Origin: a virus
Virus record (IMG/VR): IMGVR_UViG_3300028800_002451
Location: 1-42,170 of that record
Direction: 5' to 3' (one strand)
DNA: 42,170 nt
Made by a program: the position numbers and the translations under genes. The stretch's first letter is position 1. Each line of letters opens with the position of its first letter. Shown in pieces: positions 1,523 to 38,598 of this stretch. The notes under the pieces are model-generated. The model was not told the DNA's origin. It worked only from the letters and a program-made list of their open reading frames with translations, and did not search any database.

Positions 1523-1975
1523 ATGCAAATTGATAAAGACACAGCTAAAAAGCTTTATCCAGCAGCTGAAGACTGGTTTAAAAAACAATTGGAAGAGGAA
1601 TTTGGTAAAGAAACATTTATTCCTAAAGAGTATGAAAAAATTGATTCTTATGAAACGGCAGTTAGTATTCTGGAGGTATTACCTGAAGACGAAATTTTTG
1701 AGAATGATCCCGATTATGTTGTAGCACTTAAGCAGCTAAGACATATTACAAGAGTGGCTAATCCCGGATTTATTTGTAATTGGAATAACTCGAATCAAAA
1801 GAAATGGATACAAATATTTGACATGTCTTCCGGTGCCGGGTTCGACGGTTCGGGTTGCGTTTATTCGGGCACGATTGCCGGTCTCGGCTCTCGCCTTTAT
1901 AATGAGACAAAAGAGGTGTCTGACTTTATCGGTATAAATTTTAATCATTTATTTAAAATCATTTTAACAAAATAA
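1523..1975 (+). CDS. DGR variable protein 1
   Basis: A 150-residue target of the diversity-generating retroelement. The variable repeat covers residues about 101-125, from SSGAGFDGSG to GSRLY, and is followed by a 25-residue constant tail. The constant part before it is acidic and helical, with KKWIQIFDM just before the repeat. DGR targets usually end in a C-type-lectin-like fold that displays the variable residues. The placement near the C-terminus agrees, though the fold cannot be proven here. No signal peptide or membrane segment is visible, so the protein looks cytoplasmic or virion-associated. A second frame (1530-1724) on the same strand is a shadow. Confidence 0.88.
   Translation: MQIDKDTAKKLYPAAEDWFKKQLEEEFGKETFIPKEYEKIDSYETAVSILEVLPEDEIFENDPDYVVALKQLRHITRVANPGFICNWNNSNQKKWIQIFDMSSGAGFDGSGCVYSGTIAGLGSRLYNETKEVSDFIGINFNHLFKIILTK
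1824..1898 (+). repeat. DGR variable repeat VR1
   Basis: Aligns without gaps to the template repeat at 2421-2495. All 53 non-adenine template positions are identical. Of 22 template adenines, 18 differ: 14 became G and 4 became T. This is the adenine-specific signature of DGR mutagenic retrohoming. The repeat lies inside the first variable protein and keeps its reading frame. Confidence 0.95.
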
Positions 1976-1979
1976 AACT

Positions 1980-2393
1980 ATGGCTACGAAAAAAACAGAA
2001 AACAAAACAGCTTTTGACTTTAAATCGATTACAGGATTTGAAGAGGCATGTGCAAAGGAAAATATAGATCCTGAAAAATTACCTGAGGTATCTATGATAC
2101 CTGAAAAGTATAGAACCCCATTGCTTGCTGCATATAAGCTAATGGTTGGATTTGATGCCGTTAATGATGTAGATGTACCGGATTATTCAGATCTTTCTAC
2201 ATTAAAATATGAGCCTCGTTTCTGGGTTTTGTCTTCCGGTGCCGGGTTCGACACTTCGCTTTGCACTAATTCGAGCACGAATGCCGGTCTCGGCTCTCGC
2301 TTTGCTACTCTTAAGAGGGAAAAGTTATCTCATATGCAAGAACAATTTGAACAAGAATTTAAGGATTTAATCTTGCTTCCAAAACAAGAATAA
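1980..2393 (+). CDS. DGR variable protein 2
   Basis: A 137-residue protein starting 4 nt after the first variable gene. Its variable repeat encodes residues about 81-107, with SSGAGFDTSL and AGLGSRF at the two ends. As in its neighbour, a 27-residue constant tail follows and contains a similar amphipathic pattern (EFKDLILL against HLFKIILTK). The N-terminal halves are only loosely alike, so this is probably an old paralogue of the first target. There is no signal peptide. Both proteins would be rewritten by the same template and reverse transcriptase. Confidence 0.88.
   Translation: MATKKTENKTAFDFKSITGFEEACAKENIDPEKLPEVSMIPEKYRTPLLAAYKLMVGFDAVNDVDVPDYSDLSTLKYEPRFWVLSSGAGFDTSLCTNSSTNAGLGSRFATLKREKLSHMQEQFEQEFKDLILLPKQE
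2222..2300 (+). repeat. DGR variable repeat VR2
   Basis: Aligns without gaps to template 2413-2491. No difference occurs at a non-adenine template position. Of 22 template adenines, 13 differ: 9 to G, 3 to C and 1 to T. The copy extends 8 bases further 5' than VR1. Confidence 0.95.
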
Positions 2394-2395
2394 AA

Positions 2396-2514
2396 GGTTG
2401 TACGCTGTGTAGCTGAGTTTTGTCTTCCAGTGCCAGGTTCGACAATTCGAATTACAATAATTCGAACACGAATACCAGTCTCAGCTCTCACCTATGCTAT
2501 TGTCAGCGTAGACC
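2396..2514 (+). ncRNA. Predicted structured DGR template RNA
   Basis: Two nested inverted repeats close the template. The outer stem is TACGCTG (2401-2407) with CAGCGTA (2504-2510), extended by GGT/ACC across a small internal loop. The inner stem is AGCTGAG (2411-2417) with CTCAGCT (2480-2486). Downstream, GCCA-aca-TGGC and a CCGAAAGG tetraloop-type hairpin occur before the RT start. The ends of the RNA are not known, so the range given is that of the outer stem. Confidence 0.6.
2413..2495 (+). repeat. DGR template repeat (TR)
   Basis: Noncoding template between the second variable gene and the reverse transcriptase. It is rich in AAY-type codons in the frame of the targets (AAT, AAC and TAC repeats), the usual way templates place adenines at first and second codon positions. 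Every difference from the two VRs is at a template adenine. It sits in a 201-nt gene-free stretch (2394-2594) that presumably makes the template RNA. Confidence 0.95.
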
Positions 2515-2594
2515 CTGCCAACATGGCAAAAAATAAATCACTTTAATGGGCATTGGTAACCGAAAGGCGAACATGACTAATTAAAAAGCAAAGG

Positions 2595-3548
2595 ATGAAA
2601 CGATTAAATAACCTATACCAGGCAATATACAGCATCGAAAATTTAAAAATGGCCGATGCTGTAGCCCGGAAAGGTAAAAAGAAACAACCAGGCGTTATTG
2701 ATCATTCAAAAAATGAAGAAGAAAATATATTGAACCTTCATAAAATGTTAAAGGATAAAACCTATAAAACATCAGCATATACAACCTTTACCATATTTGA
2801 ACCTAAAGAGCGTTTGATTTTTCGTTTGCCATATTATCCAGATAGAATTACCCATCATGCAATTATGCGTGTTTTAGAGCCAGTATTTGTATCAACTTTT
2901 ACAGCGGACACTTATAGCTGCATTAAGAAAAGAGGAATACACGCCGCGGCTAATGCAGTAAAACGAGCCTTAAATGATGAACAAAACACACAGTATTGTT
3001 TAAAGCTTGATATAAAGAAGTTTTATCCGAATATCGATCATGAAGTACTTAAAGAATTACTCCGGAGAAAGTTTAAAGATAAAGACTTGCTATGGCTCTT
3101 AGATGAAATAATTGATAGTACTGAAGGCCTGCCTATTGGAAACTATTTAAGTCAATACTTCGCCAATTTTTACTTGAGTTATTTCGATCATTGGATTAAA
3201 GAAGAAAAGAGGGTAAAGTATTACTTCAGATATGCGGATGACATTGTAATTCTAGCTAATAATAAGCCTGAACTGCATCAACTCTTAGCTGATATCAGAA
3301 ACTATTTTTACGATAACCTTAAATTAGAAATTAAACACAATTATCAACTGTTTCCAGTTGCAGCGCGAGGGATTGATTTTGTAGGATATGTATTCTATCA
3401 TACGCATACAAGGCTTCGAAAAGGCATCAAACAAAGGTTTGCCAAAATGCTTGTCCGCAATAAAAATGAAAAATCCATTGCGAGTTATAACGGATGGGCA
3501 ATGCACTGCAACAGTCGAAACTTATTAAAAATACTTTTACATGAATAG
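2595..3548 (+). CDS. DGR reverse transcriptase
   Basis: A 317-residue group-II-intron-like reverse transcriptase. Catalytic motif A contains D139 in LKLDIKKFYPNIDH, and the YADD box is at 213-216. The motif GNYLSQ at 182-187 has the SQ ending typical of DGR enzymes, where other retroelements usually have QG. GIDFVGYVF near the C-terminus fits the motif E/thumb region. It lacks the maturase and endonuclease domains of intron RTs. It would copy the template RNA with errors at adenines and feed cDNA into the two variable genes upstream. No four-helix Avd accessory gene is seen nearby. Confidence 0.95.
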   Translation: MKRLNNLYQAIYSIENLKMADAVARKGKKKQPGVIDHSKNEEENILNLHKMLKDKTYKTSAYTTFTIFEPKERLIFRLPYYPDRITHHAIMRVLEPVFVSTFTADTYSCIKKRGIHAAANAVKRALNDEQNTQYCLKLDIKKFYPNIDHEVLKELLRRKFKDKDLLWLLDEIIDSTEGLPIGNYLSQYFANFYLSYFDHWIKEEKRVKYYFRYADDIVILANNKPELHQLLADIRNYFYDNLKLEIKHNYQLFPVAARGIDFVGYVFYHTHTRLRKGIKQRFAKMLVRNKNEKSIASYNGWAMHCNSRNLLKILLHE

Positions 3549-3606
3549 TTTTAGTCAATTCAATATAAAAACAAGCACAAAGGGATTTGAAGGTGATAAA
3601 ATAAAG

Positions 3607-3846
3607 ATGAATAAGATAATCAATAAAAATATTGAAGTATATGATTTTAAGATCGAAGATTCAAAGGTTTATAAAGATAGAGGAACATGTAAGTGTTTAT
3701 GCCTTCAAATATCAGTAAGTGGAGAAAAGCATATCGTATTTACATCATCCGGAGGCTTAATTGAGCAAATACAACAAGTACCATCCGAAGGATTTCCTTT
3801 TAAAACAATAATTATTCAGGAAAACGATAGATATAAATTTACTTAA
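3607..3846 (+). CDS. Small hypothetical protein after the RT (79 aa)
   Basis: The frame is open from an ATG at 3541 that overlaps the RT stop, but the internal ATG at 3607 follows an A-rich leader (AAATAAAG) and gives a more compact protein, so 3607 is preferred. The product looks beta-rich: alternating hydrophobic strands (IEVYDFKI, CLCLQISV, HIVFTSSGG), ending FPFKTIIIQENDRYKF. I remember similar short proteins in Bacteroides prophages, with no known function. It could be a DGR accessory or a separate nucleic-acid-binding protein; the sequence does not decide. Confidence 0.65.
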   Translation: MNKIINKNIEVYDFKIEDSKVYKDRGTCKCLCLQISVSGEKHIVFTSSGGLIEQIQQVPSEGFPFKTIIIQENDRYKFT

Positions 3847-4076: not shown

Positions 4077-7000
4077 ATGACATATATCTCCGAGGCAGAT
4101 AAAGACAAAGTGCTTGCAGCCAGTCAGCACAAGCTTATAGAAATAATTGAAAACTTTACAACACTGCATAAATCAGGAGTAAGTTATCTTGGTAAGTGTC
4201 CAATGTGTGGACAGGAACGAGGACTTACTGTTACACCTGGTAAGGGTATATTTAAGTGTTTCCGTTGTAATGGAATCAATGGTAAATATCCGATCGATTA
4301 TTTGATGAAGGGGCAAAACTATTCCTTCCCAGACGCACTCCAATATTTAGCCACCCATTGTGGAATTATCTTAGAAGAACCGGAACAAAAGCCAAAAGTT
4401 GAAGTAAAAAAGGCTAAGAAGAATAGCAAAGAAGCTGTTAATTCCGATACTTATTGCGCTCGTATGTTAGCCGAATCGGGCTTGTCATTCGAAGATGTTA
4501 TTACCAAGATATATAAATCGGATGATAAGAAGTCTATTTTTGAATGTAAGACATTTAAGCCCGGAACAGTTGATGAAAAAGGGAATATCGTTCCCGGAGA
4601 TGATGTAATAATAGAATACTATGATTTAGAGGGCTTTCCAATTAAATATGAGGTAAAGAAAAAAAATGTTGGTACGGGAATATACCGCGAATATTTCCGT
4701 ATTCGTTGGCAATATCCAGACGAACATAAAGACCAATACGGACGCCCTCAGAAATATAAATCACCTTATGGCTCTCATACTTATATTTATATCCCTGCAG
4801 CTGTTCGTGAGTTATTCAAAAATAAAACAAAGATTCCTCGTTTATATATTCAGGAGGGCGAAAAGAAAGCAGAAAAAGCATGTAAACATGGGCTTCCTTC
4901 TGTAGCTATATCAGGAATTCAGAATTTAGGAACAAACGGACGATTACCGGAAGATCTAATTAAGATTATTGCAGCTTGCGAAGTTGAAGAAGTCGCTTTT
5001 TTAATCGATGCCGATTGGGATGATCTATCACCTAATTTAAAGGTAAACGATCAGGTAGAGCAACGCCCTCGTTTTTTCTTTTCTGCAGTAAAAAATTATA
5101 AAGAATACATGCGTGCCCTTAAAAATAGGGATATTTACATTGAAATATATTTTGGGCATGTAAAACCAAATGAGGCACACGACAAAGGCGTAGACGATTT
5201 ACTCTCTAATACACTGAAAGGAAAGGAAACGCTATTAGCCGAAGACATAGATTACCTGATTAACGAGAAGGATCTAAACGGAAAATATATCCAGCTGCAT
5301 AAGATTACTACCTGGACAGATCATAAATTAGAAGAACTTTGGTGCCTGAATAATCCTAAAATGTTTGCCGAAAGACATCGGGCAAGCTTAAAGGATTTTC
5401 CTGAATTCAAAATTGGCCGTCACCGGTGGAAATTTGAGAACGGTGAACTGGTAAGCGCACAGCCCATCGAGAGCGATGAACAGTTTTGGGAAGAGAAAGA
5501 AAAAAGCGATCGCTCCGGGAATATCTCCAAGGTAACAGAGTTCAAGTATGTGCGTTCTCACCGTTTTTTACAGAATAGAGGCTTTGGCCGCTATCGTCGT
5601 TTGGATGGAACATTTGAATTTGTGCACCTCACTCCGCCTACTATTCGTACCGTACAACACTGGGAAATACGCGATTTTCTTTTTGAATTTGCACAAACAA
5701 ATTGCAATGAAGAAGTAAATGAAATGCTTATTCGTGGAGGTATCCAATATTTGGGACCTGATAAATTAGGATCCATCAGTTTTATTGAACCGGCATTTGT
5801 ACAGGCACAACGCGATCGTCATTTTTTTTACTTCAGTAATACTTGCTGGGAAGTAACGAAGGATAAAATTGTTCGTGTAGATTACGCTAGTATAAGCCAT
5901 CATATTTGGGGGGATAAACGGAAAAATTTTCCTGCAGAAATGCTTAAGCCTCTGATTACATTTGTAACCGATGATAAAGGAAAGCACTCATATACGCTAT
6001 CTGAAGAAGGTGAGAAATGTCACTTTCTTAAATTTCTGATCAATACATCAAACTTTACCTGGCGCAAAGAAAAACAAATGGCCAATAAATCCGAAGATGT
6101 AATTATTACCTCGGAAGAATTACAGGAGAATGTAGAACACCTACTTGCTAAACTATGTGCGATAGGTTACATGCTGATGGATTATAAAGATGCGAATACG
6201 GCTAAAGCAGTGGTCGGCATGGATGGAAAACAAAGCGAGGTTGGAGCTAGTAATGGGCGTAGTGGTAAATCAATCATTGGTGTAGCTCTTACACGCGTAT
6301 CTCCCACTGTTTATATTAACGGAAAAAAATCGGACATAAGTACAGACCAGTTCGTATGGGATGAGATAACCGAAAAAACAAAAACCGTTTTTATTGATGA
6401 TGTGCGCCCGGGCTTTGACTTCGAAAGTCAGTTTGCTAATATAACCGGAGATTGGTCGGTAAACTACAAAGGAGGCCGTAGGTGTACTTATCCCTTCGCT
6501 AGTAGTCCAAAACTATACATAACTACAAATCACGCCTTAAATGGCGAAGGAAGTTCTTTCAAGGATCGTCAATATTTGATCGCATTTTCTGACTTCTACA
6601 ATGACGAACATAAACCGGTGCATGATTTTGGCCAACTCTTTTTTGATGAATGGGATTTTGAACAATGGAATCCGTTTTGGAATCTATTAGCCATTTGCGT
6701 GCAGCTTTATTTGACTTACGGTGTAGTAGAGAGTCCGGGAGAAAGATTAGAGCAGCGTATCCTTCGTCAAACTATGGGTGAGAACTTTATTATGTGGGCA
6801 GAAGAATACTTCAGCAATGAACAGAAACGAAATATACGTCTGAATAGACGGGATTTATACGATTCTTTCACTGATAGCTTCCCGAACGATCGAAAGTGGA
6901 CAACACCTACATTATTTAAGAAAAAAATAAAGAAATACTGCGAATGGCGTAATTACATATTCAATCCTCAAAAATATGATGTTAATACCGGCTTACCTAT

Positions 7001-7166
7001 GTGCTATGATGCAGACGGAAAACCCGATTTTGATGATAAGAGCGGAGGAGTGGAATATTTCACTATCGGTGATGATAAATTCGGTACCGGTATTCAGCAA
7101 AAGATGAATTTAGATCCATTAGGAGAGAATGTAACTTTAGATGAATTAAACACACCAATAAATTAA
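4077..7166 (+). CDS. Primase-helicase fusion
   Basis: A 1029-residue replication protein. The N-terminus has a CHC2-like zinc ribbon with C41, C44, C61 and C64. A TOPRIM-like region follows, with LYIQEGEKKAEKA near 257-269 and VAFLIDAD near 306-313. The C-terminal part is a superfamily 3/D5-type helicase: Walker A GRSGKS near 727-732, Walker B TVFIDD near 770-775, and a sensor strand LYITTN near 813-818. This arrangement makes primers and unwinds DNA at the phage fork. It is the largest early gene and probably defines the replication module. A short intergenic gap (5 nt) links it to the next gene. Frames inside it on both strands are shadows. Confidence 0.9.
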   Translation: MTYISEADKDKVLAASQHKLIEIIENFTTLHKSGVSYLGKCPMCGQERGLTVTPGKGIFKCFRCNGINGKYPIDYLMKGQNYSFPDALQYLATHCGIILEEPEQKPKVEVKKAKKNSKEAVNSDTYCARMLAESGLSFEDVITKIYKSDDKKSIFECKTFKPGTVDEKGNIVPGDDVIIEYYDLEGFPIKYEVKKKNVGTGIYREYFRIRWQYPDEHKDQYGRPQKYKSPYGSHTYIYIPAAVRELFKNKTKIPRLYIQEGEKKAEKACKHGLPSVAISGIQNLGTNGRLPEDLIKIIAACEVEEVAFLIDADWDDLSPNLKVNDQVEQRPRFFFSAVKNYKEYMRALKNRDIYIEIYFGHVKPNEAHDKGVDDLLSNTLKGKETLLAEDIDYLINEKDLNGKYIQLHKITTWTDHKLEELWCLNNPKMFAERHRASLKDFPEFKIGRHRWKFENGELVSAQPIESDEQFWEEKEKSDRSGNISKVTEFKYVRSHRFLQNRGFGRYRRLDGTFEFVHLTPPTIRTVQHWEIRDFLFEFAQTNCNEEVNEMLIRGGIQYLGPDKLGSISFIEPAFVQAQRDRHFFYFSNTCWEVTKDKIVRVDYASISHHIWGDKRKNFPAEMLKPLITFVTDDKGKHSYTLSEEGEKCHFLKFLINTSNFTWRKEKQMANKSEDVIITSEELQENVEHLLAKLCAIGYMLMDYKDANTAKAVVGMDGKQSEVGASNGRSGKSIIGVALTRVSPTVYINGKKSDISTDQFVWDEITEKTKTVFIDDVRPGFDFESQFANITGDWSVNYKGGRRCTYPFASSPKLYITTNHALNGEGSSFKDRQYLIAFSDFYNDEHKPVHDFGQLFFDEWDFEQWNPFWNLLAICVQLYLTYGVVESPGERLEQRILRQTMGENFIMWAEEYFSNEQKRNIRLNRRDLYDSFTDSFPNDRKWTTPTLFKKKIKKYCEWRNYIFNPQKYDVNTGLPMCYDADGKPDFDDKSGGVEYFTIGDDKFGTGIQQKMNLDPLGENVTLDELNTPIN

Positions 7167-10154: not shown

Positions 10155-10487
10155 ATGAAAAAAGACAATAAAATAATAGTATGCATTGCTCAAGACGATG
10201 AGGAACGCTTGAGTATGGTTGCACAACTATCTGTAAAACTTGGTTTTGCAAAGACCCCTGGAGATGCAAGGAAAATAATCCGACAATCCCCTCATGATTT
10301 CGATCTAGTGAGCAGTTATTTTATCCTGGCTAAGGAGTACAATCTTAAATCCTCACCGCTCACTACACATCGGTTATACGAATTAGCATCCAGAGGTATA
10401 GCTGTAATTATAGGCAGCCGCAAATTACCTCCTGAGTATGAATTCTGCTGCACTCCCTTTTATGTCACTGATTTTAATAAATTATAA
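10155..10487 (+). CDS. Hypothetical protein (110 aa)
   Basis: Starts 3 nt after the previous stop. The N-terminal half contains LSMVAQLSVKLGFAKTPGDARKIIRQ, a helical stretch that could be a DNA- or nucleotide-binding element. The C-terminus has short beta strands and two cysteines (FCCTPFYV). It is not recognised. Tight spacing on both sides supports membership of the same early operon. Confidence 0.6.
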   Translation: MKKDNKIIVCIAQDDEERLSMVAQLSVKLGFAKTPGDARKIIRQSPHDFDLVSSYFILAKEYNLKSSPLTTHRLYELASRGIAVIIGSRKLPPEYEFCCTPFYVTDFNKL

Positions 10488-10492
10488 CAGCT

Positions 10493-10759
10493 ATGTCTAA
10501 GACACTTAAAAAAATATGCGAACTCCTGAAGGTAGATTATATCGAACTGATGGGTACAAAGAAACCTTACAAAGAAGCACATAAAGCTTTGCTTGTATTC
10601 TGCTACTTACACCAGGACGCACGCCTGATAGATTTAGTAAACACTACCAGCCAAAAAGAGTGGAATGTACGCTCTTACATCCGAGAAGCCAATGAGCTTA
10701 TTAAAACAGATACCGAATTTCAACAACTGGTGGAAGCGTTTGAATGCGTGGAAGCTTAA
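10493..10759 (+). CDS. Small HTH-like protein, DnaA domain IV-like pattern (88 aa)
   Basis: An all-helical 88-residue protein. The run from ALLVFCYLHQDARLIDLV to VRSYIREANELI and TDTEFQQLV resembles the helix order of DnaA domain IV or a Trp-repressor-type HTH, including the final 'level d..f..l' helix. I remember Bacteroides phage proteins of this size with clearer DnaA-C similarity. If right, it would bind DNA at the origin or control transcription. It is the last gene before the 875-nt noncoding region, where such a site could lie. The assignment is weak. Confidence 0.5.
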   Translation: MSKTLKKICELLKVDYIELMGTKKPYKEAHKALLVFCYLHQDARLIDLVNTTSQKEWNVRSYIREANELIKTDTEFQQLVEAFECVEA

Positions 10760-10773
10760 TTAAATGCAGTTTT

Positions 10774-17657: not shown

Positions 17658-17997
17658 ACCTAAAACATATCTCTTTTACTCAAAAACCACCCGTTTTTCC
17701 TCTTTTGACATTTATTTTCAATTTATATCGTTGATATTCAGCCATTATTATTTTTCAAAATGAAATTTTAAAAATTTTTGTGACGATTAAGAGCGTGCCA
17801 CTAGTTCCTTAGGATGTAATGCATAGATGTATGAAATAGGGGATATATGATAAGGTATTAATAATTAGACATATATACATTTAAAAAACAGAAATGAAAA
17901 ATATATCATATAACTAACGGATTCACTTCATTAGTTAATGCTTGTGTCCTTTATTGCCTATCCGTTTGTATCTAGTTTTGCTATATATATAATAAGC
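17645..17997. other. Intergenic region before the methyltransferase (353 nt)
   Basis: Very AT-rich with no supported gene. It holds the terminator tail at its left end and, at its right end, an inverted repeat TAACTAA/TTAGTTA around 17911-17938 just upstream of the late promoter at 17944-17980. The middle shows nothing I can assign. Confidence 0.6.
17944..17980 (+). promoter_or_regulatory. Late promoter, copy 2 (methyltransferase-terminase module)
   Basis: GTGTCCTTT at 17944 and TAGTTTTG at 17973-17980, the best -7 match of the set; the box-to-TTG distance is 34 nt. It overlaps an upstream in-frame ATG (17938), which therefore cannot be the start of a transcript from here. Confidence 0.7.
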
Positions 17998-19311
17998 ATG
18001 ATACAACTTACCTGGCACACAGAAAAAAGAATCATAAGAGATATCATTCCTTATGCATTCAATCCTCGCAAAAGAAATGAGGAGAAACAATCCGAGTTAC
18101 TTAAATCTATTCAAGACTTTAACCTCGTAGATACTCCAGTCCTTAACTTCGATGGTGTATTAATATCCGGACAGCGCAGGCTTGAAGCGTTCTTTGAGTT
18201 AGGTCGTCAGTTAGAGGAGATAGATGTACGCGTTCCTAATCGATTACTAACTGATGATGAGGTCAAGCGTTACTGCCTACTTGCCAATACTCATGCAGGT
18301 GAATGGGATCTACCTAAACTCGAAGCACACTTCTCAGATATTTATCATAATATCATAGACCTGCCATCCATTGACATAGACTTACACTCAATCAATAAAC
18401 TTGATAAGCAAAAGGAACTAGACATAGAGATCGTTGAGGATGGCTTTGAAGAAGAACCATCAGACAAAGAACCCATCACTCAGCCTGGTGATCTATATGA
18501 GATGAACAATCACCGCATAATGTGCATCGATTGCACGGACTACCTACAACTTAAACAGTTAATGGATGGGGACTTAGCAAACATGGTCTTTACTGATCCT
18601 CCATACAATGTCCGCGTCAAGGGTATATGCGGCAATGGCAAGACTAAACATAAGGAGTTTAAGATGGCATCGGGAGAGATGAATAAGCAACGCTTCTCAC
18701 GCTTCTTGGAGGATGTGTTCTTTAACCTTATTAAGACAACCACCGACGGTTCTATCCATTATATCTGTATGGATTGGAAGCACATCAATGAATTAACTGA
18801 AGCCGGCCAGATCTATACCGAACTCAAGAACCTGATTGTGTGGGTAAAAGATAACGGAGGGATGGGTACCTTCTATCGCTCTAAACATGAACTCATCTTT
18901 GTGTATAAGAACGGTAAAGGCAAACACACAAATAACTTTGAGTTAGGCCAAACAGGCAGATATCGGACAAACGTATGGGAATATGCCGGGATGAATTCAT
19001 TTAAGAATCAGGAACGCGAACTCCTGGAAGATCACCCAACAGTTAAGCCGGTTAAATTAGTTGCGGATGCTATTCTCGACTGCAGTCTTTTTAACGATAT
19101 AGTTTCGGATCTATTCTTAGGATCCGGAACTACGCTTATTTCTTGCGAACAAACAAACCGCATCTGTTACGGCTCTGAGTTGGAGCCTAAGTTCGTTGAT
19201 CTATCCATCAAGAGATATATCTTATTCTGCCGTACCTATAAGAAGCCGATCGTAATTAAGCGTAATGGCATAGAGTTAACTGATCGGGAATTAAGCCTAT
19301 TCTTAGTATGA
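17998..19311 (+). CDS. ParB-like domain fused to DNA adenine methyltransferase
   Basis: ATG 17998 is chosen because the late promoter overlaps the longer frame. Residues about 1-110 resemble a ParB/Srx-type nuclease domain (IPYAFNPRKRNEEK, then ISGQRRLEA near 57-65). The rest is an N6-adenine/N4-cytosine methyltransferase of the beta order: TDPPYN near 199-204, then DHPTVKP and FLGSGTT near 373-379, the SAM-binding site. Fusions of this type are common in phages and mobile elements next to terminase genes, perhaps marking DNA for packaging or protecting it from restriction. It overlaps the next gene by 4 nt. Confidence 0.9.
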   Translation: MIQLTWHTEKRIIRDIIPYAFNPRKRNEEKQSELLKSIQDFNLVDTPVLNFDGVLISGQRRLEAFFELGRQLEEIDVRVPNRLLTDDEVKRYCLLANTHAGEWDLPKLEAHFSDIYHNIIDLPSIDIDLHSINKLDKQKELDIEIVEDGFEEEPSDKEPITQPGDLYEMNNHRIMCIDCTDYLQLKQLMDGDLANMVFTDPPYNVRVKGICGNGKTKHKEFKMASGEMNKQRFSRFLEDVFFNLIKTTTDGSIHYICMDWKHINELTEAGQIYTELKNLIVWVKDNGGMGTFYRSKHELIFVYKNGKGKHTNNFELGQTGRYRTNVWEYAGMNSFKNQERELLEDHPTVKPVKLVADAILDCSLFNDIVSDLFLGSGTTLISCEQTNRICYGSELEPKFVDLSIKRYILFCRTYKKPIVIKRNGIELTDRELSLFLV

Positions 19312-33146: not shown

Positions 33147-35072
33147 ATGTTAAAAGTAATAGACAGAACATCTGGTACCGCTTTTGATTTACGTCCTGGT
33201 ACAAAAATAAGTATAGATCTAACAAATCCTTTTCTAACTGATCAAGGATCCATGTCTCTTGATCTTTCATTACCTAGAACTCCTATTAATTTAAAACTAC
33301 TTAATTTTCCTCATAGAACAGACCGTCAATCTATTCTAGACCTGAAGAAAGATGTCATTATTTTTTGTGGTTCATATCAAAAAACAGCGACTTTACAAAT
33401 CAAGGAAGGTCCGCCTGATTCTATAACTTGTCTATTACTTATAAACGAAAGCGAGTTTTACTCAAAATCTCAAAATATTACTTTACAAACTATTTTTCAA
33501 AATATTATACGCACTGATTTTTCAGGCTCAAATGCATCAAAGCGTGATCAATGGGTTAATTATTTAGAAATGTTAATGATATCTAGTGTTTCAGGTGTAA
33601 CTGATGAAGAGATCACCTGTTTCCCTGTATGTACATATGTTGATAATTCGGTTACTTATAGAAGCAATTTTACTGCTCAAGTTTTAAATGATGTTTCTGT
33701 AGAAGAAGTGTCAATGATTAATTATAAAGCCTATAGACCGCTTTTGTCTCGTAATAGTAGAACTCATGTAGATAAAGATGGTAAAACAATATCTTGGCCG
33801 GTAGGATTTAATGTAACTCCATTTCTAAAACTTCCTTATGTATTAAAAACAATCTTCAATTATTTTGGATATACGCTAGATTGGAGTTCTATTCATTCTA
33901 TATCTAGTTCATTTGATAATTTAGTTGTTTTAAATAATATACAGGATTCTATAATGAATGGTAATGTTGTATATTCTCAACTAGTACCATCCTGTACCGC
34001 ATCTTCTTTTATAACTGCTTTTATGCACTCATTTGGCTGTGTTTTTTCCTTTAATCATGAAAATAAAACGGTAAAGGCTACTTTTTACAAAGAAATTCTT
34101 GATACAATATCCTCTATTCCAGAGAAATGGGATTTTACAAAATATAAAACATCTTCTTTTTATCCGACCTTTGAAAATTATAAAACACTTAAACTTACTT
34201 GTAATCATGATTTAGAGGCAATATCATCATCTTTTGATAGTTATCAAAAATTTAGACTTAGCTATCCTAATATAACTTTCAAAAATTATTTTAATGTTTA
34301 CACCAGGACTTCCGAATTAACAGATGCTTACGGAATTTATTTTGGAAATAATCTTTGTGGTTATTGGAAATTATCAGAAGCTACCGATAATAGGTCTAAA
34401 GTGTTAACTCAAATTTCGGCCGATATTTTTGATTATTATTTGGAAGAGGATAATTATGAAGCTTATGAACTTACTTGTGACCGAAGTGCTTTGCAAATGG
34501 TTCTTGCGTCTCTTGGCAAAAAAATACGCTTAAATGGTGATGGTCCTGATACTATTGAATGCCCTAATTTATTATTACTTCCTTATGTAGGAAGTACACT
34601 TATGCTTAATGATTATATAAAATCAGATGATGATTCAACGACTGTGGCTGACAAAGCAAATAACCCTATTATGTTTTGTTTTTTTAGTGGATCCTTTTGT
34701 AATGATGATCCTAATACGAAAAATATAAATTATATATCCTATACAAACGAATCATGGTCAGTATGGGCGACTACACATGCTTATGATAATTTAGGTAATA
34801 AAATGAACGATTTTAGTTTAGCTTTTCACGGAATAGATGGGCTTTATAATTTCTTCTGGAAAGGATTTGATGACATTTTACATAAATCTTGGCAACCGGT
34901 TAGCATCGGGTTGAATTTATCAGAAAAGGTTCTTAATGAGTTTCAAATGGTAGAACCGCTTCTTATTGATGGACAACCTCTTTTACCTGAAGAACTCAAA
35001 TATGAACTATCAGATGATGGCGTAAAAATAATAGATACTAAGTTCCGGACACTCAAAATTTACGAAGATTAA
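33147..35072 (+). CDS. Distal tail/baseplate-type protein (641 aa)
   Basis: Follows the tape measure by 2 nt. The N-terminal 120 residues are beta-rich (TSGTAFDLRPGTKISIDLTN, TATLQIKEG), as in distal tail hub proteins. The central part has many aromatic residues (YRSNFTAQV, LDWSSIHSISSSFD) and the rest is mixed alpha/beta. I remember proteins of this size in the same place in Bacteroides phages. A hub or baseplate role is inferred from order. Confidence 0.65.
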   Translation: MLKVIDRTSGTAFDLRPGTKISIDLTNPFLTDQGSMSLDLSLPRTPINLKLLNFPHRTDRQSILDLKKDVIIFCGSYQKTATLQIKEGPPDSITCLLLINESEFYSKSQNITLQTIFQNIIRTDFSGSNASKRDQWVNYLEMLMISSVSGVTDEEITCFPVCTYVDNSVTYRSNFTAQVLNDVSVEEVSMINYKAYRPLLSRNSRTHVDKDGKTISWPVGFNVTPFLKLPYVLKTIFNYFGYTLDWSSIHSISSSFDNLVVLNNIQDSIMNGNVVYSQLVPSCTASSFITAFMHSFGCVFSFNHENKTVKATFYKEILDTISSIPEKWDFTKYKTSSFYPTFENYKTLKLTCNHDLEAISSSFDSYQKFRLSYPNITFKNYFNVYTRTSELTDAYGIYFGNNLCGYWKLSEATDNRSKVLTQISADIFDYYLEEDNYEAYELTCDRSALQMVLASLGKKIRLNGDGPDTIECPNLLLLPYVGSTLMLNDYIKSDDDSTTVADKANNPIMFCFFSGSFCNDDPNTKNINYISYTNESWSVWATTHAYDNLGNKMNDFSLAFHGIDGLYNFFWKGFDDILHKSWQPVSIGLNLSEKVLNEFQMVEPLLIDGQPLLPEELKYELSDDGVKIIDTKFRTLKIYED

Positions 35073-35073
35073 C

Positions 35074-35110
35074 TTGTCCTTTTACCTCAATAAAAAACAA
35101 AGTAAAATTG
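35074..35110 (+). promoter_or_regulatory. Late promoter, copy 5 (distal tail module)
   Basis: TTGTCCTTT at 35074 and TAAAATTG at 35103-35110, with 34-nt spacing, then CAGTATAAATAAAG and an ATG at 35128. It overlaps the stop of the preceding gene by none and lies wholly in the 55-nt gap. Confidence 0.7.
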
Positions 35111-35127
35111 CAGTATAAATAAAGCCG

Positions 35128-36780
35128 ATGCTAGTCCTTCAAAACCCATATTTGTATTCATTCGTAAATAATCCTATTGCTTTCAAATTAAATGCAGAAA
35201 GTAATAGTAAGGTTGATTTATTGATTAATGCATATAGCATATCAGTAATTGATGCCTATCATTCTTCTTTAATGACCGGATCTGCAAATAAACTTGTCAA
35301 TATACCATGGCATAATAATAAGGAAGGAATCACTATCTCCATGTGTTTTAGTGTTGCTGATAACATTACTTTTGATATCCACGACCCTAATTTTATTCCG
35401 GAAGATATTGGTTGGCCACCAAATTATAGGATGACCATAACTATGGATTACGGAAATCATATAGATGTTTTATCCTTAACCATGGGTGCTTTTGACCAAG
35501 GGGATAACAATTGGAGAGTACATATTGATCCACAAGACTATGTATCTATAGGCGGAGTACTTACCGGGATACCGTGGATTCCTCAACAAAATTGTCTAAT
35601 AACGGTAAAATTAGAAGAACTCAATGGAAGCACATACCAGTTGTTAGCTGAGTCCGACCCATTCCAATATGTCTATAATGAGGATTTTTATAATGCAAGG
35701 CCTCGCGTATATGATAATAAACCATTTTATCTAAATATTCCAACAAAAGAAGAATCCTATGCTTTATTAGATACCTTTTCTTTATCGGCTTATCCTGTTT
35801 ATACTACTCATCTTACTGAATTTGAGATCTCGGACATATTAAAATCCTACTTCACGTCTACCGGCTTGGCTAATGATATGAAAATTAAGTATGATGCCAT
35901 ATTTAGCATCGGCGGTACTGTTCTACATTCATACTCAGGATACGCTGTTTGTGGTGGTATTTCAAAACAATACCTCATGTGGCTCGTAGATCGGGATACA
36001 AATCCTTTTCTATCTCGTTTTTTAAATCAGCTGGCTAACTTTTTATTCACTACTCGTACAGCGTCACCAGTTATGTCTTTATTTAGAGAAGAACTTGCTC
36101 CTGTTTATTTTTTATATCCTGGAAATAATGCAATTTCTATAGTGGGCGGAGATAATTCCTATGATCTTCCGGCTAGTATACTTGGCGTTCCTTCCATAAT
36201 TGACATACCGTCTATTCTGGCTTCATGGCCGGATGGGGATAGTCTTACTACTATATATATATGCGTATCCTCAATTAAGCTAATAAAAATAAATATTCAA
36301 GACTGCTTTTTCGAAGAAAAATATACCCTTCGTTTTCGCAATTCACTTGGAGTTTTTGAGAACCTATTGGTAACCGGTAAGGCTACAAGTAAACCCACTT
36401 TTGCCGATAACGATTCCTTTAACGAGTTTTCAGATGAATATTTCATGTTTCGCAAATCAAGAAACCGCGTATCGGTTACGGATAAAATAGAAGTAAGCAG
36501 CGGATACAAAGGCTCATTAAATCTGTCTTTCATTAAAGACATACTCATATCTGATGAGATCTATTTCGATGATGGTGAATTTGAGCGTAAATGTATGGTT
36601 ACCTCAAGCGATTTCTCACAAGCCTTAAAATCCACCGCTCCGGAATTTGTCACTCTTTTAGTAGAATTCACGGAAGATGATTCAAATTATACAGCTCTAA
36701 ATGAAATCAATGAACAGACAGAAGTATTAGAGTCGGAAGACGAGTCGTTTATTATTTCAGAAGATAATTTTTTAATTTAA
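35128..36780 (+). CDS. Tail protein, probably distal (550 aa)
   Basis: A beta-rich 550-residue protein with no named domain. The N-terminus LQNPYLYSFVNNPIAFKLNAESNSKVDLL suggests a beta-sandwich entry; many strands follow with turns rich in Asn, Asp and Gly. The last 30 residues are acidic. Place and composition agree with a baseplate or fibre-attachment component. The late promoter gives it a separate start of transcription. Confidence 0.6.
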   Translation: MLVLQNPYLYSFVNNPIAFKLNAESNSKVDLLINAYSISVIDAYHSSLMTGSANKLVNIPWHNNKEGITISMCFSVADNITFDIHDPNFIPEDIGWPPNYRMTITMDYGNHIDVLSLTMGAFDQGDNNWRVHIDPQDYVSIGGVLTGIPWIPQQNCLITVKLEELNGSTYQLLAESDPFQYVYNEDFYNARPRVYDNKPFYLNIPTKEESYALLDTFSLSAYPVYTTHLTEFEISDILKSYFTSTGLANDMKIKYDAIFSIGGTVLHSYSGYAVCGGISKQYLMWLVDRDTNPFLSRFLNQLANFLFTTRTASPVMSLFREELAPVYFLYPGNNAISIVGGDNSYDLPASILGVPSIIDIPSILASWPDGDSLTTIYICVSSIKLIKINIQDCFFEEKYTLRFRNSLGVFENLLVTGKATSKPTFADNDSFNEFSDEYFMFRKSRNRVSVTDKIEVSSGYKGSLNLSFIKDILISDEIYFDDGEFERKCMVTSSDFSQALKSTAPEFVTLLVEFTEDDSNYTALNEINEQTEVLESEDESFIISEDNFLI

Positions 36781-36792
36781 AAAAATAAGAAT

Positions 36793-38598
36793 ATGCCAGA
36801 TCCAATAGCTAAAAAAGTCAGTGAGTTTGATCCTTATATAGGTGATTTAAAAAATCTATTTTTGCATGGGTATCAAATTATAGCAGGAAATAAAAAATCA
36901 ATTAAAGCCTCTATTATAGATGCTGCATTAGAAAGCGGTAAATTAATTTACATTCAGGATGGAAAATTTAAAAGCTCTACTTTACCTGCTGATCTAAATG
37001 TAGCAGAATTACTCGATCTTAATCATATTACTGTCGGTAATATACCTATGCGTTCCGAAGATGGAGTATTAGAAGATACAGGTATAGCAGCAGAAGATGT
37101 TGCTACAAAACAAAATTTAGCAGATATAGTTGTTAATAAAACAAATTATCCGAATGGTAATATAGCAACTCAGGCTCTGGCAACAGGGACATATATACAC
37201 TACCCTAATGGTCATATAGCAGCAGAAGCCATCGCCCAAGGATTTTTTATAAACTTTCCAAGTGCTGCCGATGCAATTTCAATTTATGAAAATGTAGCTG
37301 GAGATAAGAGCATATCGCTTTTAAATAATCAGATCTGTCTTACAGGAACTGGAAATGTTTTTCAAAGTCCTGAAGGATATGAAGTTATTCGTGCGGAAAG
37401 CGGCGCTTCTAAATTTATGTATGAGCCATCAGCAGGCACTCAAATAGCTATTGAAGCTAATGCAAACGGTTTATATATTAATGATCCGGTTGGTAACGGA
37501 ATAATAGAAATTGGTAATGGAGGGAACTATTTTAGAAATAATAATGCAGGAGATTTTATTGGAGCTGAGGACGATTACCTTTGGATTTGTGACGAATTTG
37601 GAAGCACTGTTTTAAGTGTTGGAATTGACTATGCGACTGGTCTGTCTGGATTAAATATTAATAATAATAGCTATACTATAATTAATTCTTCACCTACTCA
37701 ATTCCACTTAGGTGATGGATTTACTGGTACTGATATTATATTCCTTAATGATACTAGCTTTTCTCTACAAGGAGCGTATGGAGATAGTATTTTAACAGCA
37801 TATTCTGACCACTCAGGTCCTAATTCCAACCTCACACTCACAAGAGTTGGACTGGCGGATATTCTGTCAAGTTCAACTGAAAATAATCAGTTCTTTTCGC
37901 CTGCCGGACATGAAGGAATAACTATAACAAATGATGAAGTAACTATCAATAACAACGGATTTAATGATGGATTAAGGATAACTAACTTGAGCATATCTGA
38001 CGAGATTAGCCTTGAAACACAGTATGGTAGTTGCGTTTATTTATTTAATAACAGAGACGACAATAGTCAAAGCTTTAATAAAATTCTAACTCCCGAGGGA
38101 GGCGATTGTTTAAACGTATATAACGACCGATTTGCTCTCGTGCATGATTCGACAGACATCATACTAGGCATTAATGACGGGCTATATATAAATAATATGA
38201 ATGGTGTCGGAGCATTTTCGGCCGAAGAGCATGCTACAAAATTACAGATATACGGTAGTGATGCTTTTGTATGTGGTACTGATGCTTTTGGGTATATGGG
38301 AGTTTCAGTATATAATCCATATCAAATAAGCGGAATGCCTGTCTTGCAAATAGACGGTGCTAGTGGCGTATTTAAGATTAATGATGCTAATAGTCTACAA
38401 AATGTAATGACTGTAGACCCAAATGCTGGCGTAAGCGTATATTACGAATTATTAGCTAATAATGGCTTTGTTTCTTCGAAAGAATTCAATTTAGTACAAT
38501 TGTCTGATACTTATAAAAATAAAAGTTTAACAATAGATAGCCTAGGTAATTCTATTTGGAAAACACCAGCTGAATTTAAGGCTTGGTTAGGTCTTTAA
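36793..38598 (+). CDS. Putative tail fibre or receptor-binding protein (601 aa)
   Basis: The N-terminus (KKVSEFDPYIGDLKNLFLHGYQI) resembles the attachment part of Bacteroides phage fibres. The rest is made of short repeating strands with Asn/Gly turns (PNGNIATQALATGTYIHY, PNGHIAAEAIAQGFFINF), typical of beta-helical or triple-stranded fibres. It ends VQLSDTYKNKSLTIDSLGNSIWKTPAEFKAWLGL, like a trimer tip. Unlike many DGR phages, it holds no copy of the variable repeat, so the DGR does not diversify this gene. Confidence 0.72.
   Translation: MPDPIAKKVSEFDPYIGDLKNLFLHGYQIIAGNKKSIKASIIDAALESGKLIYIQDGKFKSSTLPADLNVAELLDLNHITVGNIPMRSEDGVLEDTGIAAEDVATKQNLADIVVNKTNYPNGNIATQALATGTYIHYPNGHIAAEAIAQGFFINFPSAADAISIYENVAGDKSISLLNNQICLTGTGNVFQSPEGYEVIRAESGASKFMYEPSAGTQIAIEANANGLYINDPVGNGIIEIGNGGNYFRNNNAGDFIGAEDDYLWICDEFGSTVLSVGIDYATGLSGLNINNNSYTIINSSPTQFHLGDGFTGTDIIFLNDTSFSLQGAYGDSILTAYSDHSGPNSNLTLTRVGLADILSSSTENNQFFSPAGHEGITITNDEVTINNNGFNDGLRITNLSISDEISLETQYGSCVYLFNNRDDNSQSFNKILTPEGGDCLNVYNDRFALVHDSTDIILGINDGLYINNMNGVGAFSAEEHATKLQIYGSDAFVCGTDAFGYMGVSVYNPYQISGMPVLQIDGASGVFKINDANSLQNVMTVDPNAGVSVYYELLANNGFVSSKEFNLVQLSDTYKNKSLTIDSLGNSIWKTPAEFKAWLGL

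Follow-up and report, generated by a model that had tools for sequence, protein, structure and literature searches.

In a survey of >30,000 diversity-generating retroelements (DGRs), VRs are described as near-universally C-terminal and located in C-Lec folds (PMC8144416). The same survey describes phage DGR targets as serving mainly in host attachment, most of those known being tail proteins. Two features of the BPP-1 DGR are relevant to the present locus. An IMH segment mismatched to the template repeat (TR) sets the direction of transfer (PMC3240598), and the spacer folds and recruits the reverse transcriptase (RT) complex (PMC12875486). The DGR described here has adenine-specific TR/VR differences and a structured TR region, and its two target proteins are encoded in an early gene region.

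The window (IMG/VR record IMGVR_UViG_3300028800_002451) was analysed over its whole length of 42,170 bases. It derives from a temperate tailed phage of Bacteroidota, with a one-direction gene run (encoding a primase-like protein, head protease, terminase, tape-measure protein and endolysin) and a tyrosine integrase at the right end. The gene at 17938-19311 encodes a protein that combines ParB-like nuclease and DNA methyltransferase parts (phrog_498, phrog_620).

The DGR cassette of the window phage

The cassette occupies positions 1523-3548 on the + strand and consists, in order, of two small ORFs, TR and the RT gene (Table 1). Both ORFs and the RT gene are intact and on the same strand, which bears out the arrangement of two targets, one template and an RT proposed in a sequence-only reading of this DNA. 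The VRs lie within the ORFs, and TR sits between ORFs and is non-coding as judged from the sequence alone. Alignment of TR 2421-2495 with VR1 1824-1898 (75 nt, 22 TR adenines) gives 18 mismatches, every one of them at an A (hypergeometric P 8e-14), and alignment of TR 2413-2491 with VR2 2222-2300 (79 nt, 22 A) gives 13, again all at A (P 2e-9). The counts and coordinates reported earlier (18/22 and 13/22 adenines, 0 other bases) are correct on realignment, and the P values rule out chance repeats as the source of TR and VRs. No third VR was found in a scan of the whole window, the tail-like ORFs at 33147-38598 included.

Table 1. Features of the DGR cassette and its neighbours in the window
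Feature	Position	Strand	Remarks
Target A	1523-1975	+	150 aa, phrog_11581 family; VR = residues 101-126, then ~25 residues modelled as helices
VR1	1824-1898	+	18/22 TR adenines changed, 0/53 other bases
Target B	1980-2393	+	137 aa, paralogue of target A; VR = residues 81-107
VR2	2222-2300	+	13/22 TR adenines changed, 0/57 other bases
RNA stem bracketing TR, 5' strand	2396-2408	+	Covarying helix 1, alignment A3
TR	2413-2495	+	Non-coding template repeat
IMH*-like TR 3' end, AGTCTCAGCTCTCACCTAT	2477-2495	+	Fixed A versus VR G at 2483 and 2490; A versus T at 2494 in VR1
RNA stem bracketing TR, 3' strand	2503-2514	+	Covariation
Downstream hairpins	2511-2595	+	Rfam RT-17 RNA (RF03020) hit that stays under the gathering score in window
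DGR reverse transcriptase	2595-3548	+	317 aa; Pfam RVT_1, phrog_1423, PDB 8ub7
Candidate accessory ORF	3541-3846	+	101 aa, phrog_19665; 8-nt overlap with RT end
Primase-like protein	4077-7166	+	CHC2 zinc finger, DUF3854; neighbour placing cassette in replication module

The RT has the motifs IGNYLSQ and YADD, the former being the DGR-type SQ motif that had been noted previously and conforming to the (I/L)GxxxSQ pattern of the DGR clade. It matches the profiles RVT_1 (Pfam) and phrog_1423, and its best PDB match is chain 8ub7_A (E-value: 7e-44), deposited as "Reverse transcriptase", which we take to be BPP-1 bRT. The closest RTs of named phages are those of crAss-like and Bacteroides phages (~57% identity in the crAss-like ones). 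No match to the family of Avd, an accessory protein that not every DGR requires, was found among the tested neighbour genes; the crAssphage LMMB DGR likewise lacks avd (PMC7290462). The ORF overlapping the RT end is at most a candidate accessory gene. PADLOC gives no match for the targets and generic matches for the RT. This element is a genuine DGR and its identification is secure. Its earlier description as complete holds for TR, the VRs, the RT and the TR-RNA structure, but not with respect to an Avd-like gene, as none was recognised.

In an alignment of 70 TR regions, a 12-pair stem encloses TR, and hairpins are located between TR and the RT gene. In these helices taken together, 96.6% of cells are paired, compared to 34-46% when slid. 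The TR-RNA has 311 doubly changed cells versus 86 in shuffles, with double changes at 19 of 23 pairs. The covariance model of RT-17 RNA (RF03020) matches only the part 3' of TR, scoring 32.6 bits in the window (gathering score: 40.4; E-value: 0.001) and 43.5 bits, above the gathering score, in a relative (L020). The structured TR region fits the known role of the BPP-1 spacer. Inverted repeats directly 3' of the VRs are not enriched (best stem mean 4.30 bp, versus 4.28 bp in control windows), and the lack of stem-loop enrichment after the VRs fits with a VR that is internal and a flank that is coding.

Relatives and adenine-specific change

RT relatives were gathered from genomes and viral contigs and searched with a script that scores adenine-tolerant ungapped matches, allowing at most two non-A changes per VR. 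TR/VR pairs were found in 149 of 163 sequences. A short TR (~75-90 nt) with at least two VRs is present in 117-118 loci, the VRs normally lying ~190 and ~600 nt upstream of TR in two tandem genes, and this arrangement occurs in >100 phages and prophages. Prophages of Flavobacterium, Pedobacter and Niastella are among the relatives. In the 118 related short-TR loci, every VR is in the phrog_11581 family (107 pairs, 10 triples and 1 quadruple). A related-locus search with target B gave one locus. In sister elements, whose RTs are mostly from Bacteroidales, TR is ~115 nt long and as a rule feeds a single target of ~430-480 aa. One locus (L047) was rejected as an early-type member; its profile match is false (E-value: 8e-4) and its target is a C-Lec-type protein of 449 aa. 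Four loci (L034, L110, L129 and L033) carry extra copies of the early target family 3-7 kb away, with VRs fed by the same TR.

When 93 distinct TRs are compared with 198 VRs, changes are seen at 2923 of 4255 adenines and at 44 of 11395 other bases, the latter count being limited by the search rule. Loci without insertions or deletions were compared base by base, with some pairs left out. L088 and L002 are identical to L089 over 2,245 nt except at nine sites, all of them TR-adenine sites in a VR, and L011 differs from L138 in the same span at 21 sites, again all TR-adenine sites inside VRs. The sequence-only reading had proposed such a comparison of relatives for new adenine-site variants, and 9/9 and 21/21 differences are of this type. 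It had also taken the differences in the window as direct evidence of active or recent mutagenesis. The window alone cannot show this; it is the near-identical relatives, rather than the window phage, that give direct evidence, at the sequence level, of adenine-specific diversification in the clade. With respect to the bases introduced, A-to-C changes make up 2.2% before C and 16-18% before T or A (93 TRs, core columns 38-76). The context trend of BPP-1 in E. coli is reported to be the opposite (PMC12875486), and selection may contribute to the pattern.

Some of the adenine differences are fixed. Eight TR adenines are replaced by the same G in both window VRs. TR positions 2429, 2435, 2483 and 2490 are A in TR and G in VR across the 93 distinct TRs, with G in at least 97% of VRs. 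In alignment columns 24, 25, 31, 79 and 86, TR A is opposite VR G in 93/94, 51/51, 124/127, 183/185 and 170/173 comparisons, respectively, while in column 90 TR A is opposite VR T in 120/120. The window holds four fixed A/G sites and the A/T site (VR1 only). Because the four A/G sites are fixed in the clade, these differences are not recent mutations, and the counts of 18 and 13 overstate random mutagenesis by ~4 each; 14 VR1 and 9 VR2 differences are left without them. The use of all adenine differences as evidence of mutagenesis must be qualified accordingly, as several are fixed TR/VR marks.

The fixed sites are probably a putative IMH/IMH* mark of the clade, an interpretation based on the direction-setting, TR-mismatched IMH of BPP-1. 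The 3' TR/VR differences are present in the sister DGRs too. Alternatively, the fixed A-to-G sites could result purely from protein-level selection for Gly or Arg after random A-to-N change, with no such mark. The four fixed sites do fall in codons for conserved Gly or Arg residues. The synonymous bases that lie between them covary in TR and the VRs, so transfer must at times, if only rarely, span those sites. Selection alone is nevertheless somewhat unlikely. It does not account for the retention of A at both 3' fixed sites in 82-88 of 93 TRs, and the 3'-most change, at column 90, is CTA to CTT, which is synonymous where the frame reads Leu and so speaks against protein selection alone, yet it is T in every VR comparison. 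The BPP-1 precedent (PMC3240598) also argues for an IMH/IMH* mark, in addition to which selection on Gly and Arg may act. At the VR 3' end (columns 79-88), the fixed G bases convert TR AGCTCTCACC to VR GGCTCTCGCC. The VR form, unlike TR, could pair into a stem of 3 bp closed by a TCTC loop, and this mini-stem could be part of target recognition or a coincidence.

Target proteins and their genomic location

The targets, which the sequence-only reading did not consider further, are the point of interest of this locus, as they are a paralogous, probably non-tail family encoded in the early region. Targets A and B are a tandem pair of small paralogues (family size: 120-160 aa). Both match the profile phrog_11581 in their N-terminal part (E-values: 1e-10 and 7e-7), as do 69 of 71 aligned members. 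The VR is internal in both proteins and is followed by ~25-30 residues. Pfam gives no convincing family match and no C-Lec match for the targets, and a Foldseek search of the PDB with the target models gives no match, C-Lec included. Significant E-values in BFVD, a viral structure library, are limited to uncharacterised phage proteins. The AlphaFold2 models (86- and 71-row alignments; pLDDT 87 and 85) consist largely of helices, and confidence is low for the VR loop. The targets are predicted to be small, soluble-looking proteins with a conserved, mainly helical scaffold and one hypervariable loop of ~27 residues. Given the low model confidence for this loop, and the likeness of its end, VGSRLC, to the C-Lec VRs of sister DGRs, a degenerate or reduced C-Lec element in the loop is possible.

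The window cassette is located shortly before the primase-like gene. Upstream of the cassette, on the same strand, 26-31 loci have MuA-like, AAA/MuB-like and DUF3164 genes (the MuA-like call was made by eye and has no Pfam match), and Mu portal genes are on the opposite strand in 24 loci. Eight whole records of 35-44 kb have only the two early VRs and no tail VR; four of the eight have a confirmed Mu-type portal. The chief reason for reading the targets as non-tail proteins is that the early position recurs on different phage backbones, although an early gene position is not proof of absence from the virion.

Four named phages, cr52_1 (crAss-like), Bacteroides phages Versailles and BT-TP2 and Phocaeicola phage PV4-TP1, have one TR, beside the RT, with two VRs. 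The near VR is in or beside tail genes, while the distant VR (12-17 adenine changes, 0 other) is in a homologue of the window's targets. The genes around this homologue are recombination genes, replication genes or small unannotated ones, and the tail operon is far away. The same dual tail and early targeting is seen in a further locus, L062. In Versailles, the early homologue (L164:7863-8444; 10181-10762) is annotated as a "tail protein" although it is located among recombination and replication genes, and this label probably stems from the likeness of its VR to tail C-Lec VRs. In BT-TP2 (PQ571279.1; L168, L190), the early target gene spans the record ends and is unannotated; its VR has 13 adenine changes and no others.

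These phages bear on the question of whether the DGR is a conventional one, in which both small proteins would have a reduced C-Lec and act as minor tail or receptor-binding proteins, with genes lying apart from the structural ones. A tail-region gene is served by the same TR in all four, so the VR peptide can evidently be accommodated in a C-Lec context. VGSRLC is also similar to the conserved end of C-Lec VRs, and tail proteins make up most of the known phage targets (PMC8144416). A conventional role is nonetheless quite unlikely given the early-region location across different backbones, the small size, internal VR and lack of a C-Lec match by Pfam or Foldseek, and the position of the dual-target homologues, distant from the tail operon.

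A quickly built RT tree places 98 early-only RTs on one side of a branch (SH-aLRT 93); this tree, which has weak deep support and long PV4-TP1 and BT-TP2 branches, was used only for the clustering of these early-type RTs. In the simplest history, whose direction we infer, a tail-target DGR gained the early target and the window's clade kept only the duplicated early target. As the four named phages use one TR for both tail and early genes, the window's type has probably lost the tail target.

Proposed model and comparison with known systems

The proposed model for the DGR of the window phage is as follows. Covariation shows that the TR-region transcript folds into a long stem with TR in its loop, followed downstream by hairpins. 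The RT would copy TR with errors at adenines, to judge from its family and from the pattern of VR changes. The cDNA would replace the VRs of the two tandem paralogous genes, as seen in the sequence pairs of relatives. The fixed adenine differences at the TR ends probably distinguish the donor, TR (IMH*), from the recipients, the VRs (IMH). The targets would bind variable host or rival-phage proteins intracellularly, such as defence or superinfection factors; the early position and the absence of tail features point to such a role. The diversified proteins are accordingly best described as putatively non-virion and probably involved in host interaction. It is very improbable that the window element is a relic, once active and now fixed: only a single genome is available, with no near relative found by Megablast to named phages, and part of the differences are clade-fixed, but the RT is intact with catalytic motifs, the RNA stem is intact and TR lacks the non-adenine drift from either VR that is expected under decay.

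Taken as a whole, a functional-type DGR that diversifies paired early non-tail proteins, which would bind host or rival factors, is a likely explanation. A wider proposal is put forward more tentatively, with somewhat less than even likelihood: that a widespread class of Bacteroidota phage DGRs has shifted mutagenesis from the tail to an intracellular early pair on a new scaffold, and so diversifies counter-defence or superinfection factors instead of receptor binding. If the model is correct, early, helical, paired and internally variable targets would mean that DGRs diversify intracellular phage proteins on another scaffold. Named phages would then be at hand in which one template feeds a tail-region and an early gene (Versailles, BT-TP2 and PV4-TP1), as would a natural two-target system for studying TR/VR discrimination. 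The target family, its tandem early arrangement in Bacteroidota phages, the dual-target intermediates and the TR-enclosing stem go beyond the literature compared; the target family may already be an uncharacterised cluster of the >30,000-DGR survey (PMC8144416).

The window DGR resembles that of BPP-1 in its homologous RT, a TR upstream of the RT with a structured spacer, adenine-only differences and 3' TR/VR mismatches similar to IMH*/IMH. It differs in having no recognised Avd, a TR of ~80 nt, two tandem non-tail targets and an internal VR, and its clade has no hairpin enrichment after the VR. RT-17 RNA (RF03020) matches the TR-RT spacer of the window below its gathering score, but the 95-nt model is wholly 3' of TR, whereas the window stem has a 5' partner before TR. 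The Tentaclin DGRs nd4 and nd12 (PMC10743442) also have one template and two target genes; in contrast, both targets are C-Lec proteins and proposed receptor binders. The sole reported prophage relative of these DGRs is in Flavonifractor (Bacillota) (PMC10743442). The Quimbyvirus DGR (PMC8008677), likened here by description only, also has an additional target that is apparently non-structural and is reported to lie near defence-related genes, although this target is reported to be a C-type lectin and accompanies a structural one. In the DGRs of crAss-like and Bacteroides phages (LMMB, cr52_1, Versailles and PV4-TP1), the target next to the RT is encoded in the tail region and has a ~90-118-nt VR, whereas the window's type has no tail VR. 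These phages nevertheless encode the nearest named-phage RTs, LMMB shares the lack of avd and, in several of them, a homologue of the window's targets receives sequence from TR as well.
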